Shown in pieces: positions 6,722-16,342 of a stretch of 64,000 nucleotides of DNA. This DNA comes from Spirochaetales bacterium. Lineage in GTDB: Bacteria; Spirochaetota; Spirochaetia; JABMQR01. Location of the stretch: contig JAGYPA010000012.1 of the NCBI GenBank assembly GCA_018399255.1, positions 1 to 64,000 of the forward strand, in the 5' to 3' direction. The stretch's first letter is position 1; each line of letters begins with the position of its first letter. The translations under genes and the position numbers were made by a program. The notes beneath the pieces are model-generated. The model searched no databases. It was not told where the DNA came from and saw only the letters and a program-made list of their open reading frames with translations.

Positions 6722-7156
6722 CTATAAAAGAGCGGCTATTTTTTCCCGCCAGCTGTCCGGCATGGGGCCGGGTCTGCCGGTTTTAAGGGAGACAAAGCCA
6801 GCTTTTATCTGCATGCGGCAAAGCAGCTCCTCATCTCGCATAATATCCTGCTGGAAATGTATGGTTACTCTGGCGCAGGCAGTTACACTGGTACGAACGG
6901 TAAGAAGGTCATCCAATCTTCCGGGACGGTGGTAGTCGGCAGCAATTTTACGTATGACAAACACGCTGCCTCCGGAGCTGATCATTTTCTGCTGGTTTTC
7001 TCCGAGCAGCCGCAGCAGCTCCGAGCGGGCATGCTCGGCAAAATCGAGATATCTGGAATGGTACACGACACCGCCGGCATCGGTATCTCCAAAATAGACA
7101 CGGACTGGAAACAAGTAGGTTTTTCCGTCGAGTAGACCGGTTATTGGTAAGTTCAT
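6722..7156 (-). CDS. YbgC/4-hydroxybenzoyl-CoA thioesterase family (hotdog fold)
   Basis: VRVYFGDTDAGGVVYHSRYLDFAEHARSELLR hotdog thioesterase motif; ATG at 7156 preferred over tool start 7381, which lies in the neighbouring gene. Confidence 0.85.
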   Translation of the reverse strand: MNLPITGLLDGKTYLFPVRVYFGDTDAGGVVYHSRYLDFAEHARSELLRLLGENQQKMISSGGSVFVIRKIAADYHRPGRLDDLLTVRTSVTACARVTIHFQQDIMRDEELLCRMQIKAGFVSLKTGRPGPMPDSWREKIAALL

Positions 7157-7182
7157 GCTGATTATAGTAGTAAAATGCCCTG

Positions 7183-7238
7183 CCCCTGTCCAGTAGCTGG
7201 ACCCCTGTCCAGTAGCTGGACCCCTGTCCAGTAGCTGA
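7183..7238. repeat. 3 x 19-bp tandem repeat with palindromic core
   Basis: CCCCTGTCCAGTAGCTGGA at 7183-7201, 7202-7220, and CCCCTGTCCAGTAGCTGA- at 7221-7238. Confidence 0.97.
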
Positions 7239-7250
7239 ATGATTAAAAAA

Positions 7251-9077
7251 TTAATATGTAAAACTGCTTTCAAGCAGCTCCTCAGGAATCGAAGTCTCCA
7301 TTTTAACCAGTTCATTAAAAATAAAGTCAAGGTTGAGGATAGCCAGCAGAACATGGTTCTCATCGAAAAGCGGCTGGGCACTGGTAATAATCAGCCGTTC
7401 GGTATATTGGGAAAAATAGAGATCCGAAGTATATGGCTCCTGTGTAGAGGAAACATGCTTGAACCACTCTCTTTCAACAAAATTCTTGTTCTTGATATTT
7501 CTGAAAAACACACGCTCACCGTGCTGAGTATGCACCTGGCTGAGTCTTTCTCCCTTCAGGTTAGTCACTGCTGCAAACTGTATCGAGGGCTCCCTTTTAA
7601 GCAGATCATTGAGGATAACCTGAATTCTGTCCGCATTCAGATGCTCCATCTCAAGGCGACTGGAGATTCTGAGGGCGATCTTCTTGGCAAAGTGGTTGGC
7701 ATTTCTGATAGCCGCAGAGAAATTTGATTCGAACAGGCGGGGAATATGATGACGGGCCTGGGTTATCAGCTCATCAGTAGAAATGCTCGTTATTCTCCCC
7801 TGCTGATACTGTTCCATTACCCAATTGTATATCGGCTTTACTCCGGGATGCCGCTTGCTGACGGGTTCTGTCTCACCTCTGATAATTGATGCAACATTAT
7901 CATTGAGCCAGCGGGCAATTCCGGCCATGCCGGACTTATCAGTAACCATAACTCGCAGGGGGCGATTAAGAATCTTACCGGTATCAAAAATATTGTAAAT
8001 CTCCTCATTTTTCAGCAGACCATCGGCATGTATGCCGGCTCTGGTCGTATTGAAATCATCTCCTACAAATGGATAGTTGCCTGGAACTGATGCTTTGATC
8101 TCATGCTTATAGTAATCGGATATTTCGTTGATAATCGAGAGATCCATACCGTCTTCCGTTCCGCACAGACCGGCATACTCGATGACGGCCCCCTCGAGCG
8201 GAGGATTCCCGGTGCGTTCACCAAATCCCAGCAGGCTCGCATTAAGGGAAGACACCCCGTAAAGCCAGGCTGTTGCGGCATTTGTGTGGACTTTATGAAA
8301 ATCATTATGTCCATGCCACTCCAGATATTCTGCAGGATACCCTATCCGGTGCCGGAAGGCGTGCACCATTTTTGGAATTGATCGGGGCAGAACCGCTCCC
8401 GGATAAGAAATTCCATAACCCATAGTATCGCATAATCGTACTTTAACCGGAATCCCTGCCTCCTCGGAAAGCCTCAGCAGCTGCTGAGCAAAAGGTAGAA
8501 CAAACCCGTCAAAATCAGCCCGGGTTATATCCTCAAAATGGCAGCGAGGAATAATGCCCTGGGAAAGAGCCTCCTTTACGACTGCCAGATATTTTTCGAG
8601 AACTGCTGTTCGGGTACTTTTCATTTTAAGATAGATATGGTAATCCGAAACGGAAGTCAGAATACCCGTCTCCTTCAATCCAAAATCCTTAACCAGCACA
8701 AAATCATCGGGGTTAGCCCGGATCCACCCGGTAACTTCCGGATAGGTATGATTTTGCTCAAGACATTTCTCAACAGCCCGCTTGTCACGCTGCGAATAGA
8801 GAAAAAATTCTGTCTGACGGATAATGCCCTTCTCTCCCCCGAGCCGGTGCATAAGATCATAAAGATGGCTGATCTGCTCTACCGAATATGGAGGCCTGGC
8901 CTGCTGTCCATCCCGGAAAGTTGTATCGGTAATCCATATCGATTCAGGAACATCCATACCTGCCGTAGTGCCGTCAAAAAGAATCCGGGGTACCGCGTCA
9001 TAGGGAAACTGATCGCGAAACAGTTCCGGCTTCTTCCTCTCCACGACTTCCATTAACTGTAAATTCCGTTTCAGCAT
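7251..9077 (-). CDS. Homocitrate synthase/2-isopropylmalate synthase/Re-citrate synthase-like enzyme with C-terminal Cache/PDC-like segment
   Basis: WITDTTFRDGQQARPPYSVEQI, WHGHNDFHKVHTNAATAWLYG, GFGERTGNPPLEGAV (HMGL-like barrel); C-terminal FVEREWFKHVSSTQEPYTSDLYFSQYTERLIITSAQPLFDENHVLLAILNLDF matches Cache/PDC sensor pattern. MLKRN start at 9077 preferred. Confidence 0.8.
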   Translation of the reverse strand: MLKRNLQLMEVVERKKPELFRDQFPYDAVPRILFDGTTAGMDVPESIWITDTTFRDGQQARPPYSVEQISHLYDLMHRLGGEKGIIRQTEFFLYSQRDKRAVEKCLEQNHTYPEVTGWIRANPDDFVLVKDFGLKETGILTSVSDYHIYLKMKSTRTAVLEKYLAVVKEALSQGIIPRCHFEDITRADFDGFVLPFAQQLLRLSEEAGIPVKVRLCDTMGYGISYPGAVLPRSIPKMVHAFRHRIGYPAEYLEWHGHNDFHKVHTNAATAWLYGVSSLNASLLGFGERTGNPPLEGAVIEYAGLCGTEDGMDLSIINEISDYYKHEIKASVPGNYPFVGDDFNTTRAGIHADGLLKNEEIYNIFDTGKILNRPLRVMVTDKSGMAGIARWLNDNVASIIRGETEPVSKRHPGVKPIYNWVMEQYQQGRITSISTDELITQARHHIPRLFESNFSAAIRNANHFAKKIALRISSRLEMEHLNADRIQVILNDLLKREPSIQFAAVTNLKGERLSQVHTQHGERVFFRNIKNKNFVEREWFKHVSSTQEPYTSDLYFSQYTERLIITSAQPLFDENHVLLAILNLDFIFNELVKMETSIPEELLESSFTY

Positions 9078-9443: not shown

Positions 9444-10067
9444 ATGAGAAATTGGAAACTGAAAAGCCTTGCTGCAGCGGCTGCAATTGGAGTACTGTTA
9501 CTTTCCGGCTGCGTATCAACCGATCAGATCAGCAAACTTGCTGACGACGCCTTGGTTGCAGAGCTGCGACTCTCCGCTATCGAAACACAAACTGCAGATA
9601 TGAAAGCAGCTTTCCAGACCGTAGCCAAAGCGGAAGAGCTTGAGGCTCTTTCGGCTGAGCTTCAGAAAACACGTCAGGAAGTTGCAGAAGAGATGAATGC
9701 GGCTGCTGCACAGGCATCTGAAGAAATTCTTGCTGTGCGCCAGGAAACAACTGCCGCGATGAATACGGCAATAGCACAGGTCTCCGATGAGATTATTGCT
9801 TTGCGGCAGGAAACGGCCGACATCATCAGAAATTATACAAAAAATGAGAGTTTCACCCAGCTTGCGGATCGGGTTACCCTGCTTGAAAATGAACTTGCCC
9901 TGATCCAGGAAGTGATCGGAAACCTTGCCGCCTATGGCGAATATACAGACAGCGAGGATTTCCTTGCCTTCCTCTATGGCCTTGTCGACATTTACGACAC
10001 CCTGGAAGTAGTAGAAAGAAACCTGCTCAACCTGAAGGAAGCCATGCGATTGTTTGTTGCGGAATAA
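9444..10067 (+). CDS. Coiled-coil lipoprotein
   Basis: Lipobox LLLSGC; long Ala/Glu heptad/hendecad region with 22-aa repeats. Confidence 0.7.
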   Translation: MRNWKLKSLAAAAAIGVLLLSGCVSTDQISKLADDALVAELRLSAIETQTADMKAAFQTVAKAEELEALSAELQKTRQEVAEEMNAAAAQASEEILAVRQETTAAMNTAIAQVSDEIIALRQETADIIRNYTKNESFTQLADRVTLLENELALIQEVIGNLAAYGEYTDSEDFLAFLYGLVDIYDTLEVVERNLLNLKEAMRLFVAE

Positions 10068-10132: not shown

Positions 10133-12067
10133 TCAGGATTCAATTCCGAAAAGCTCTTTAACAGCAGCCATATTACGCTCGTTGAAGAAGTTTTTTTCGA
10201 CATACATGGCATCTATGCGATCCTTGTATAACTCAGCAGCCTTATACCTGACAAGCTTCATGGTAGAGTTGATGAGCCCGTCATCCTCGGAAAACTCCTT
10301 GGGAATTATCTCAAATACGGCTGGAATCCACTGGGCAGATACTGATGCCTTGATTTCGGGTTCAAACGCATAGAGCGCTTTGCGAATTACTTCCAGAGCT
10401 TCCCTGGCTGTCCTTGCCGATGAGGCCTCCAAAACCTTCCTTGTCGGTTCTACCTGAAGGGTAACCAGACCGGTTGTATAGTTCTTATGATCATTGTAGA
10501 CCATAATCTGGCTGACCAGATCACAGTTGTTGACAATAGCCTCTTCAATCTCCTCAGGTGAGTATTTTTCTCCGTCTGGTGAGATAAGCAGGGCTTTGGC
10601 CCGTCCGGTGACAACCAGAAAACCGTCCCTGTCGTAGTACCCGAGATCTCCCGTCCAGAGCCATCCATCCCTCAAAACCTCTTCAGATGCTGCGGGATTC
10701 TTGAAATAGCCCTTCATTACATTATCACCCTGAATAACAATTTCCCCGCGCTCACCCTGCCCGGCTTCTGTGATTTCGTCCTTCATTATCCTGCAGACCA
10801 CATTAGGAGCTACCATACCGCTCGTCCCGAATTTATGCTTGTGCGGAGCATTGGAACAGATGACAGGCGCTGCTTCGGTGAGGCCGTACCCCTGAAAAAT
10901 CGGCATCCCTATGGCGGCAAAGAAATCCTGCTGCCTGACCTCGAGCAGAGCTCCGCCGCCGACGCAGAATTCGATCCTGCTGCCGAAGACTTCTCTGAGT
11001 TTAGGAAAAATCAGCTTTGATGCCAGAAAATAGGGAATTGCCGTGGCAATTTTTGTCCTCAATCCCAGTCCCGGTTTCGCCGAACCATCTCCATTACGGC
11101 GGATACCGGCAGTCAGTCCGGCGCTGAAAATTTTCTCGATCAGCCCTCCCTTTTCCGCTATGCCAGCCGCCATTTTCTTCATAAAGTTACCTGATATTGC
11201 CGGAACTGTCATAACAAAATGGGGATTAACCTCTTTCAGGTTTTTGGGGAGATTTCTGATGATATTCAGGCTGCCCCCCCGGGCATCTACAAAATGCATG
11301 GTAATACCCCGCAGCAATGAAGCATACAGTCCGACAGTATGAGCGAATGAGTGGTCAAGAGGCAGGACGATCAGGGTTTCATAGACAGCATCGGGCAATC
11401 GGAACAGTTCTACCGAATCAGTCGCATTTGCGAAGTAGTTCTTGTGGGTCAGCATGATGCCCTTGGGGTTTCCTGTGGTACCCGAGGTATAGCAGATATT
11501 GACCAGATCCTCCTCGCTGATGCTCTTTTCCAGCTTGGAAACCAGCTCCGGTTTCTTCTTCAGAGCTTTTTCACCTTCCGACAGAAGGGCGGAATAGAGA
11601 ATAACAGCCTCTCCGCGGCCGACTCCCAAGTCTTTTTCAACTTGCAGAAGGTTAGAATCTTCCTCGTCAAGGTACACGAGGAGCGGTTTTTTTTCAAAAC
11701 TGGCATACGCCTGGGAAACTTTCTTTATGGTATTGCTGGATACGATAAAGCCGCCGGCTTCAGAATGGTTGATGCGAAAGGCTATTTCTTCCGGGGTCAG
11801 TTTGATAGACATCGGAACCGAGACGCAGGCAGCCTTGACAACGCCGAATTCTCCTGCTACCCACTGAGGTCTGCCTTCAGCAAGAATTCCCACTGCTGTA
11901 TTACGTTTGAATCCCCGTGCAATAAGGGCTGCAGCAACTTGGTCCGACTCGTGATCTATATCAGCAAAGGTCCAGGGTTTCCAGCCCTCGTCAGTCTTCA
12001 TTGTGGTATATGCCCGTCCCGGATATCGCCGGGCCGCTTCATGCAGCAGTCGTATTATGGTCTTCAT
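10133..12067 (-). CDS. Long-chain acyl-CoA synthetase (AMP-forming)
   Basis: ICYTSGTTGNPKGIMLTHKN, YGLTEAAPVICSN, WLWTGDLGYYDRDGFLVVTGRAK. Confidence 0.93.
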   Translation of the reverse strand: MKTIIRLLHEAARRYPGRAYTTMKTDEGWKPWTFADIDHESDQVAAALIARGFKRNTAVGILAEGRPQWVAGEFGVVKAACVSVPMSIKLTPEEIAFRINHSEAGGFIVSSNTIKKVSQAYASFEKKPLLVYLDEEDSNLLQVEKDLGVGRGEAVILYSALLSEGEKALKKKPELVSKLEKSISEEDLVNICYTSGTTGNPKGIMLTHKNYFANATDSVELFRLPDAVYETLIVLPLDHSFAHTVGLYASLLRGITMHFVDARGGSLNIIRNLPKNLKEVNPHFVMTVPAISGNFMKKMAAGIAEKGGLIEKIFSAGLTAGIRRNGDGSAKPGLGLRTKIATAIPYFLASKLIFPKLREVFGSRIEFCVGGGALLEVRQQDFFAAIGMPIFQGYGLTEAAPVICSNAPHKHKFGTSGMVAPNVVCRIMKDEITEAGQGERGEIVIQGDNVMKGYFKNPAASEEVLRDGWLWTGDLGYYDRDGFLVVTGRAKALLISPDGEKYSPEEIEEAIVNNCDLVSQIMVYNDHKNYTTGLVTLQVEPTRKVLEASSARTAREALEVIRKALYAFEPEIKASVSAQWIPAVFEIIPKEFSEDDGLINSTMKLVRYKAAELYKDRIDAMYVEKNFFNERNMAAVKELFGIES

Positions 12068-13297: not shown

Positions 13298-16200
13298 TTA
13301 CCCGGCAGCAAAGAGGAAAGCAAGCTGATCAACGGTAATGCCGGCTAGATCATCAGCCAGAATATCACAGGAAAGGGTACTTACTGCGGCCCCGATACCA
13401 ATAGACTTCATTCCTGCAGCCTGTATGCCAGCTATGCCTGGAGGGGCATCCTCAAATCCCGCACACTCATCGGGAAGGCATCCAATTCCTTCTGCCGCCC
13501 TGATAAATATTTCCGGGTCCGGCTTGCCCTGCTCCACCTCCCCTACCGGGACAATATAATCGAGCAAGCTTATAAGATCCAGCTGCCTGATAATATATTC
13601 CGCATTGCGGCTGGCTGATGCGACGGCTATCCGGATTCCCTGCTTTTTCAGCTGTATCAGGAGTTCCCGGGTTCCCGGAAGCAGATCATCGGCTGAGAGT
13701 TTTGCAAGCGAATCCCTGTATTGTGAATTTTTTCTCTCCATAAGCATCGATATCTGGTTTTCATCGAGTTCGACTCCGTTTTCTGCCAGAATAATCATAA
13801 GAGATTCACGTCTGGACACTCCACGCAGACGCTGATTAACTGAATGATCAAATTTCCAGTTATTATCATCGGCGAGCTGCTTCCAGGCTTCATAATGATA
13901 GATATCGGTCGAGGTTATCACTCCATCGAGATCAAATACTGCTCCGCGAAATTCCGGTCCAGTCTGAACAGCTGTCAGTTTTCTGCCAATCGTCAGCGGG
14001 CGTCCGCGATGCATAATTTCTACAGAAACATTTTGCCGGTCATGTTCTGCCGATAACAGCTCCTCTCCGGAACGGTCAGTTTCATCGAGAAGCTGATAGG
14101 TGGTCGTCTGACTGTCCATATGAACGGCTAGTGATCCTTTCGCGGTTTTCAACCTGAAACTCAGAGTTTGCCAGTGCTCAGGGAATGCGTGCGGGTATAA
14201 CGAGGGGGTTCCGTTATGATATCGGACCCCGGCGAACCCGAAAAGCGTCAGCATCCACGATCCAGCCATAGATGCTGTATGCAGTCCGTCTTTTGTGTTT
14301 CCCTGGAGGTTTTCCAGATCCACAAATGCGGCAGCTCTTGCATAACGTATCCCCGTATCCCTGCAGCCAAGCTCAAGAGCCATAATCCCCTGCATGCAGG
14401 CCGAAAGAGAGCTGTCACCGGTTGTCAGCGGTTCGTAAAAGTAAAAATCGCGTATTTTCTGCTGCAATGAAAACTGATCATGAAGCAGAAGGTGTACAAG
14501 GATGGCGTCTGCCTGTTTCAGTACCTGGTGTCGATATATGACAAGCGGATGATAATGAAGTAGGAGCGGATAGTTTTCGGGTGGGGTTGATTCAAAATCC
14601 CATGGTTCTCGATCTAGAAAGGTATCATCCTGAGGATGAATGCCGAGCTGTGAATCATAGGGGAGAAACATCGATTCAGCAGCCTTGCGCCAGAGCTTCT
14701 GTTCTTTATCGTCCAGCCGCAGCCGGGTGCAGAGCTTATCGAGAAAATCCGGATAGTGCTCCTTCAGGTGACTGAACCAGCAGGCTGCTTTTTTCAGGTG
14801 ATAGGCGGCCATGGCATTGGTGTAGAAGTTGTTATTCACCAGAGCTGAGTACTCATCGGGACCGGTAACCTCATTAATGCAGAACTGACTGCTTTTCCGT
14901 TTATTGAAAAATCCAAGGCTCAGCCACAGTCTGGCCGTCTCAAAAAGCATTTCCGCTCCGCCTTCCAGCATAATACTGACATCACCGGTTATTTCGACGT
15001 ACTGCAGAAGACTGTAGGCAATATCCGCGTTTATGTGATACTGAGCTGTACCGGCCGGAAAATAGGCTGACGCCTCTTGACCGTTTATTGTCCTCCATGG
15101 ATATAAGGCCCCTTTTTCGGAGAGCAGCTTCGCCTGACTGCGGGCGTGTTCAAGAATTGATATGCGGTACTTGAGCAGACTGCGGGCAATCCGGGAACTG
15201 ACATTGGTAAAAAATGGCATGGCATAGATTTCCGTATCCCAGAAGTAGTGCCCTTCATATCCGTTACCTGACAGCCCTTTTGCAGAGAGGCTGGTTTCTC
15301 CCGTCCTGCCGGCCGACTGGTAGAGTTGAAATATGTTATAACGCAGGGCTTTCTGGTATTCGGGATCACCGGCAATCCTGACATCCGCATCCTGCCAGAA
15401 TTTGCTGAGTTCCTCCTGCTGTATTTCAGCAAGCTTCTTGTAGCCCAGCTCTATGCCCTGCATCATGGCCGTACGATACTCATGGTACAAGGTATCCTCT
15501 TCGCCAGCAGGTCGAAAAGCATAGAAGAAGAGCTTTTCAACGACCAGTTCCGCTGATGCACCAGCTTGCGGAGCCGGAGAGATCAGTGTGCAGGTTTGCA
15601 GGGCGGCTTCATCAGAATCATTCTCGAAACATACCCATTCTTCAGCACCGTCGGTCTTTACTGCATACCCGTAGATAAGGGATAAATCACTCATGGCTGT
15701 CCGGTTATGGACTTGAACAGAACGATAGGCACCAAGCTGTTCGGTAGTGGTTGATACCTGCATGAGAGCTGCTTTTGCACCATGAGCTGCCGTTCGCGGA
15801 TCTGATCCGTCATGCAGGCTGGATGCTGAATTGGAAGATGACGGTACAGCGATTCCCGATACAACGGTTACCGGATGAGTTCCGCGATACGATATTTTCA
15901 GCCTGGTTCCGCCGATTCGCAGGTAGCGATAGCTAATCAGATGCTCCCAGCTTATCGTCAGCTGATCACCATTCGGACTATCCCAGACGATTTCCCGTGT
16001 AAGCACACCGGTTTTCATGTCAAGAACTCGTCTGAATCTGCGCATGGTGCCAGAATTCAGGGAGAACCGATGGCTGCCGCTGAAAACCTCAAGGTAGCGT
16101 GCATCAGGAACATCAATCATAGTCTGATTGTGTTCTGCAAATCCATACGCCTTTTCTCCATAGCAAATCGGACTCGTTTCGTAAAATCCGTTTATAAATA

Positions 16201-16342
16201 TACCTGGATGATACGAGGCATCCCGTTCAGTAAAATATCCGCGAATACCGAAGTATCCATTGGCAAGCGAGAACAAGGTTTCAAGTTCCGGTACTGCTTT
16301 CGGGTTATAGTCAGATTGCTCCAGTATCCAGGCTTCATCCAT
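13298..16342 (-). CDS. GH65 disaccharide phosphorylase fused to beta-phosphoglucomutase (HAD)
   Basis: GH65: FWDTEIYAMPFF, NEVTGPDEYSALVNNNFYTNAMA, KQADAILVHLL; C-terminal FDLDGVITSTDIYHYEAWKQL...GKPDPEIFIRAAE = beta-PGM. Confidence 0.92.
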   Translation of the reverse strand: MDEAWILEQSDYNPKAVPELETLFSLANGYFGIRGYFTERDASYHPGIFINGFYETSPICYGEKAYGFAEHNQTMIDVPDARYLEVFSGSHRFSLNSGTMRRFRRVLDMKTGVLTREIVWDSPNGDQLTISWEHLISYRYLRIGGTRLKISYRGTHPVTVVSGIAVPSSSNSASSLHDGSDPRTAAHGAKAALMQVSTTTEQLGAYRSVQVHNRTAMSDLSLIYGYAVKTDGAEEWVCFENDSDEAALQTCTLISPAPQAGASAELVVEKLFFYAFRPAGEEDTLYHEYRTAMMQGIELGYKKLAEIQQEELSKFWQDADVRIAGDPEYQKALRYNIFQLYQSAGRTGETSLSAKGLSGNGYEGHYFWDTEIYAMPFFTNVSSRIARSLLKYRISILEHARSQAKLLSEKGALYPWRTINGQEASAYFPAGTAQYHINADIAYSLLQYVEITGDVSIMLEGGAEMLFETARLWLSLGFFNKRKSSQFCINEVTGPDEYSALVNNNFYTNAMAAYHLKKAACWFSHLKEHYPDFLDKLCTRLRLDDKEQKLWRKAAESMFLPYDSQLGIHPQDDTFLDREPWDFESTPPENYPLLLHYHPLVIYRHQVLKQADAILVHLLLHDQFSLQQKIRDFYFYEPLTTGDSSLSACMQGIMALELGCRDTGIRYARAAAFVDLENLQGNTKDGLHTASMAGSWMLTLFGFAGVRYHNGTPSLYPHAFPEHWQTLSFRLKTAKGSLAVHMDSQTTTYQLLDETDRSGEELLSAEHDRQNVSVEIMHRGRPLTIGRKLTAVQTGPEFRGAVFDLDGVITSTDIYHYEAWKQLADDNNWKFDHSVNQRLRGVSRRESLMIILAENGVELDENQISMLMERKNSQYRDSLAKLSADDLLPGTRELLIQLKKQGIRIAVASASRNAEYIIRQLDLISLLDYIVPVGEVEQGKPDPEIFIRAAEGIGCLPDECAGFEDAPPGIAGIQAAGMKSIGIGAAVSTLSCDILADDLAGITVDQLAFLFAAG

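Follow-up and report, generated by a model that had tools for sequence, protein, structure and literature searches.

The gene at 7251–9077 (minus strand) of the window, by which we mean the whole 64,000-nucleotide stretch of Spirochaetales bacterium DNA that was analysed, encodes a DRE-TIM acyl-CoA condensing enzyme that carries a genuine Cache/PDC domain. With a probability that we put at roughly 0.6, this is a long-form Re-face-specific citrate synthase whose activity is changed by a small carboxylate at the Cache pocket. The enzyme family is known, and its sensor module, confirmed here, is apparently unstudied. The features used below are as follows.

7251–9077, minus strand: long-form Re-citrate synthase family gene, 608 amino acids plus stop (open reading frame and translation).
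7755–9077, minus strand: catalytic part, residues 1–441, a DRE-TIM barrel (HMGL-like, 48–321) and a post-barrel helical region (PF00682, Foldseek, invariant residues).
7299–7724, minus strand: Cache/PDC sensor domain, about residues 452–593, a long N-terminal helix and then the PDC sheet (PF22673, relatives, AF2 and Foldseek).
7326–7472, minus strand: predicted pocket stretch with R536, W538, F539, Y554, S556, T559, T565 and D584 (PctA/KinD alignment, conservation).
6722–7222, minus strand: YbgC-type acyl-CoA thioesterase, directly downstream of the citrate synthase gene (4HBT_2, E 7e-17).

The ATG start of the 608-residue open reading frame is preceded by a purine-rich stretch, GGTGGTGG, and translation gave no internal stop codons. 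Homologues are 44–97% identical to the window protein over the full length. Misassembly, chance and fusion through a lost stop codon were ruled out, since independent assemblies from many phyla contain the same fusion and the Cache domain has an omega of 0.036 versus the nearest relative (0.024 for the catalytic part). This value corresponds to strong purifying selection, from which we conclude that the Cache domain is maintained. No transmembrane segment or signal peptide was found in the protein, the highest 19-residue Kyte-Doolittle mean being 1.29; with no hydrophobic segment, an exported or membrane protein was also ruled out.

Profile searches of the C-terminal piece placed MCP-like_PDC_1 (PF22673) above its cut-off (30.5–30.8 bits against 27) and dCache_1 (PF02743) below its own, at 32 bits (E 1e-7) against 45 bits. 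The same Pfam search gave no LeuA_dimer match in this piece, and a LeuA_dimer tail was therefore ruled out. Both Cache models match each of the 57 long homologues individually, with a best E of 3e-21, and YkuI_C also matches 21 of the 57. A profile built from the tails finds the solved Cache domains of Tlp3, KinD, PctA, PctB, PctC and Mlp24, together with that of cytoplasmic YkuI. The AlphaFold model of residues 440–608 (pLDDT 82, pTM 0.79) has the tail elements H13-38, H43-56, E60-67, E72-77, H98-106, E123-132 and E138-147; in the full-length model the first Cache helix is long, covering residues 452–474. Foldseek of the tail model returned KinD sensor chains as best matches (E 1.4e-8, prob 1.00), including the pyruvate complex 4jgp, and also matched Tlp3 and WalK. 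A Cache call by chance is ruled out by the 57 of 57 relatives and by the fold.

The extracytoplasmic location that is typical of Cache domains does not apply to a protein with no hydrophobic segment. While 78% of Cache domains are confidently extracellular, two Cache families are principally intracellular (PMC4822843), so a cytoplasmic location does not exclude Cache membership. The first-pass annotation had proposed a Cache/PDC domain where LeuA_dimer might be expected, on a cytoplasmic enzyme of central carbon metabolism. That domain call was right: the Pfam result, the relatives, the PDC-like fold of the AlphaFold model and the hydrophobicity profile all agree with it, and the motifs it quoted are found in the translation.

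For the catalytic part, HMGL-like (PF00682) was matched over residues 48–321 with an E of 8e-25. Residues R55, D56, Q59, H147, R178, H180, E182, T218, H255, H257 and N291 are invariant in 57/57 long forms; these active-site residues are largely kept in short forms and are common to the Brocadiales short forms. Using the full-length AlphaFold model (pLDDT 89), the best Foldseek matches of the barrel were homocitrate synthase (6ktq) and methylthioalkylmalate, isopropylmalate and citramalate synthases. The window protein thus has its barrel in common with LeuA, citramalate and homocitrate synthases, among which 3ble, 6ktq and 1sr9 are the closest solved structures, but the nearest solved structures are only about 25% identical to it. 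None of the NCBIfam isopropylmalate, homocitrate or citramalate synthase models reaches its cut-off, the best score being 131 bits versus 463 for nifV. LeuA-type synthases have a LeuA_dimer or RAM tail, whereas the window protein has neither and has a Cache tail in its place.

Re-citrate synthases condense acetyl-CoA and oxaloacetate to citrate, are metal dependent and of the DRE-TIM type, and would be the narrower name for an enzyme in which homocitrate, isopropylmalate and Re-citrate synthase motifs had been recognised at first pass. The assignment draws on TCA-cycle gene neighbours and on a match to published candidates. Same-strand downstream neighbours of relatives were scanned (59 in all), and these include members of the isocitrate/isopropylmalate dehydrogenase family in seven cases, succinyl-CoA ligase beta in six, the aconitase family in five and the malate/lactate dehydrogenase family in three. 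Neighbours checked against NCBIfam were isocitrate dehydrogenase (two checked), succinate-CoA ligase, an aconitase-family protein and malate dehydrogenase. The upstream neighbour is aspartyl-tRNA synthetase in 25–26 of 52, which we regard as a habit of the lineage with no bearing on function here. An ADP-forming succinate-CoA ligase adjoins the Brocadiales short forms; the Kuenenia gene that has been proposed as a Re-citrate synthase is 55% identical to the Clostridium kluyveri enzyme and adjoins succinate-CoA ligase (PMC8027424). Motifs, TCA neighbourhood and the Kuenenia reasoning would place the window protein in the same family as the Re-citrate synthases of C. kluyveri, S. aciditrophicus and Desulfovibrio, an indirect link made through Brocadiales gene order and Syntrophaceae members. 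Firmicutes, Chloroflexota and Thermodesulfobacteriota are reported to have Re-citrate synthases, for which annotation as homocitrate or isopropylmalate synthase is a frequent error (PMC12016533). On these grounds we infer citrate synthase specificity for the window organism.

The computed mass of Syntrophaceae long forms is 71.2–71.9 kDa, and among 59 relatives of one such protein, all 37 full-length matches are long. Kim et al. reportedly purified the S. aciditrophicus Re-citrate synthase by Strep-tag in 2013 as a homotetramer with subunits of about 72.9 kDa. Due to this agreement of masses, and to the 37 of 37 long matches, we take the characterised Syntrophus enzyme (about 73 kDa) to be the long form, so that a Cache-bearing Re-citrate synthase, active without added effector, has very probably been available since 2013. 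The publications that we found on Re-citrate synthase describe the enzyme but neither a Cache tail nor a ligand. Note that in the open-licence literature no citrate, homocitrate or isopropylmalate synthase was found to be described as having a Cache domain; domain databases may list the architecture automatically, and this negative is weak evidence of novelty.

The thioesterase gene is probably co-transcribed with the citrate synthase gene, and a role in the mechanism is a candidate only. The order of the two genes is kept in the three nearest genomes, with gaps of 27–75 bp, and the thioesterase orthologue in one relative (L002) matches TIGR02799. Beyond these three genomes, a thioesterase was not seen behind the citrate synthase gene among the relatives' neighbours that were scanned. 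Elsewhere in the window, a lipoprotein-like coiled-coil open reading frame with an LLLSGC lipobox (9444–10067, plus strand), overlapped by a long antisense open reading frame, has the citrate synthase gene on one side and an AMP-binding acyl-CoA synthetase (10133–12067, minus strand) on the other. The 1014-residue open reading frame at 13298–16342 (minus strand) combines glycoside hydrolase family 65 with a C-terminal, beta-phosphoglucomutase-like HAD domain, and may be a disaccharide phosphorolysis unit in a single polypeptide.

A pattern scan of genome contigs gave at least 594 stretches, at least 588 of them encoding relatives; 57 full-length long-form relatives were aligned. The long form has about 580–640 residues with the Cache tail, and the short form about 430–463 without it (77 and 12, respectively, of 89 scored rows). 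Among the matches listed, long forms occur in Spirochaetota, Lentisphaerota, Fibrobacterota, Nitrospirota, Omnitrophota, Elusimicrobiota, Margulisbacteria, Armatimonadota and many Thermodesulfobacteriota, with sulfate reducers and syntrophs among the hosts; short forms occur in Brocadiales (58–59% identity to the window protein), other Planctomycetota, Poribacteria, Paenibacillus and some spirochaetes. The family was found in 29/198 genomes of the window's class. The rarity that the first-pass annotation implied is therefore mistaken, since the family is widespread and the fusion is its common long form.

Because a short form exists without it, the Cache domain is an accessory module. The long/short label changes at least five times on the catalytic-domain tree, with two of the changes forced by well-supported branches, and the tail has therefore probably been gained or lost more than once. 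Searching three frames downstream of genuine short-form genes gave no decayed Cache domain; two further cases (L026 and L080) are long forms that are interrupted or lie at a contig end. Short forms are also present in two genomes of the window's own class (G015 and G023; L011 at 1447–2832 and L013 at 1435–2811). The position of L011 inside a long-form clade suggests that its Cache tail was lost; the sequence downstream held no remnant of one.

At the predicted pocket, PctA and KinD were aligned with the window Cache. PctA R126, W128, Y144 and D173 align with R536, W538, Y554 and D584; Y129 corresponds to F539, D146 to S556 and Y121 to the variable K531. W538, S556, L562, T565 and D584 are invariant in the 57 long forms. 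Position 536 is Arg in 47/57 and Lys or His in eight, with His or Lys in several close relatives, which counts against the favoured reading. PctA R126 contacts the carboxyl group of the ligand (PMC10104139); in KinD, the pyruvate site lies in the membrane-distal PDC (PMC8534201). KinD R131, which was mutated in 4jgq/4jgr (R131A structures), aligns with the R536 column. In this best fold match, from B. subtilis, the carboxylate Arg, Tyr and Ser positions align with the window Cache, but KinD, a receptor kinase of the membrane, has a double PDC and differs at the positions of W538 and D584. Similarly, the dCache_1AA receptors (PctA, Tlp3, Mlp24/37) have equivalents of R126, W128, Y144 and D173 in the window Cache, which, unlike them, is a single cytoplasmic PDC unit with K531 at Y121 and S556 at D146. 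The full dCache_1AA motif (Y121, R126, W128, Y144, D146 and D173 in PctA numbering) is therefore incomplete, and a strict amino-acid receptor was ruled out. Diacid_rec (CdaR) and YkuI_C are cytoplasmic Cache domains like the window tail, but sit on signalling proteins (in YkuI with an EAL domain) and not on a TCA enzyme (PMC4822843).

From its residues, the pocket looks suited to a small carboxylate, which would bind through R536. The ligand could be a 2-oxo acid, pyruvate among the candidates, or else an amino acid made downstream of the pathway, for example glutamate. Binding would then change the activity of an enzyme whose cytoplasmic Cache stands where LeuA-type relatives have their regulatory tail. 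We infer ligand binding, its coupling to catalysis and allosteric control by a small carboxylate; the direct small-molecule control suggested at first pass is, judged by conserved pocket residues, plausible.

Unlikely, but to be weighed against ligand control, is a Cache domain that serves as a structural or oligomerisation module without ligand, in which oligomers would form through the long N-terminal helix and the needs of folding would account for the conserved pocket residues. Dimerisation is a frequent role of PAS and Cache domains (PMC8694187); the window Cache does start with such a helix, and no ligand is known for it. However, the invariant residues are the ligand-contact positions of PctA and KinD, and short forms presumably assemble without a Cache. 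Clade-specific changes, moreover, concentrate in the Cache: for the spirochaete/Lentisphaerota/Fibrobacterota clade that includes the window, 12 of 14 diagnostic positions lie there (residues 498–585, window 7323–7586), including 503, 549, 563, 567, 582 and 585, and separate two Cache clades, Y549/A567/D582 versus H549/S567/G582. Some such excess is expected because sequence variability is higher in the Cache overall (mean pairwise identity 38%, against a compared figure of 62–63%).

The window genome also has a Si-citrate synthase (contig C68), beside isocitrate-dehydrogenase-family and aconitase-family genes. A second citrate synthase is thus not obviously needed, which counts against the Re assignment, and an argument for Re identity from absence of the Si enzyme fails, since the genome has both. 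The Si enzyme is present in 11/12 genomes of the clade versus 5/20 with other long forms (Fisher p 6e-4, without correction for relatedness; as the genomes share ancestry and not all are complete, this should be considered a trend only). It could be that enzymes of the window clade drifted to another condensation of acyl-CoA and 2-oxo acid, giving for example homocitrate or citramalate, and the coexistence would fit such a change; we nevertheless consider it quite improbable. At all 31 active-site and barrel positions inspected, the clade agrees with every other long form except for one T/S in L044, and position 297 is the only diagnostic position in the barrel. Next to leu-type genes (C146), the window genome carries another two genes of the HMGL family, and both citrate synthases are present in C. 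thermocellum (PMC12016533). The reading that we favour is that the sensor was re-tuned while the enzyme stayed the same, and that the Re enzyme works alongside the ordinary one under particular conditions. That the Cache senses an inorganic or redox cue and not a carboxylate is very hard to credit: Re-citrate synthases are oxygen sensitive (PMC12016533) and live in anaerobes, but the domain has no conserved Cys, His or haem motif, and the window clade has Ile in place of the common C563.

Among the extracellular sensors of prokaryotes, Cache domains are the principal kind. In a 2016 survey, all Cache outputs were signal transduction, one small family excepted (PMC4822843). Tentatively, and with more doubt than confidence, the soluble Cache may be a direct allosteric switch on the enzyme of oxidative TCA entry across many anaerobic phyla, its pocket re-tuned in spirochaetes and Lentisphaerota, where the Re enzyme would be a conditionally used second citrate synthase. 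If a Cache does control a TCA enzyme, receptor-type ligand recognition would directly set central-metabolism flux. Since the family occurs naturally both with the tail and without it, such regulation is easily tested, and the outcome would account for the control of Re-citrate synthase in sulfate reducers and syntrophs, whose glutamate synthesis depends on the enzyme.
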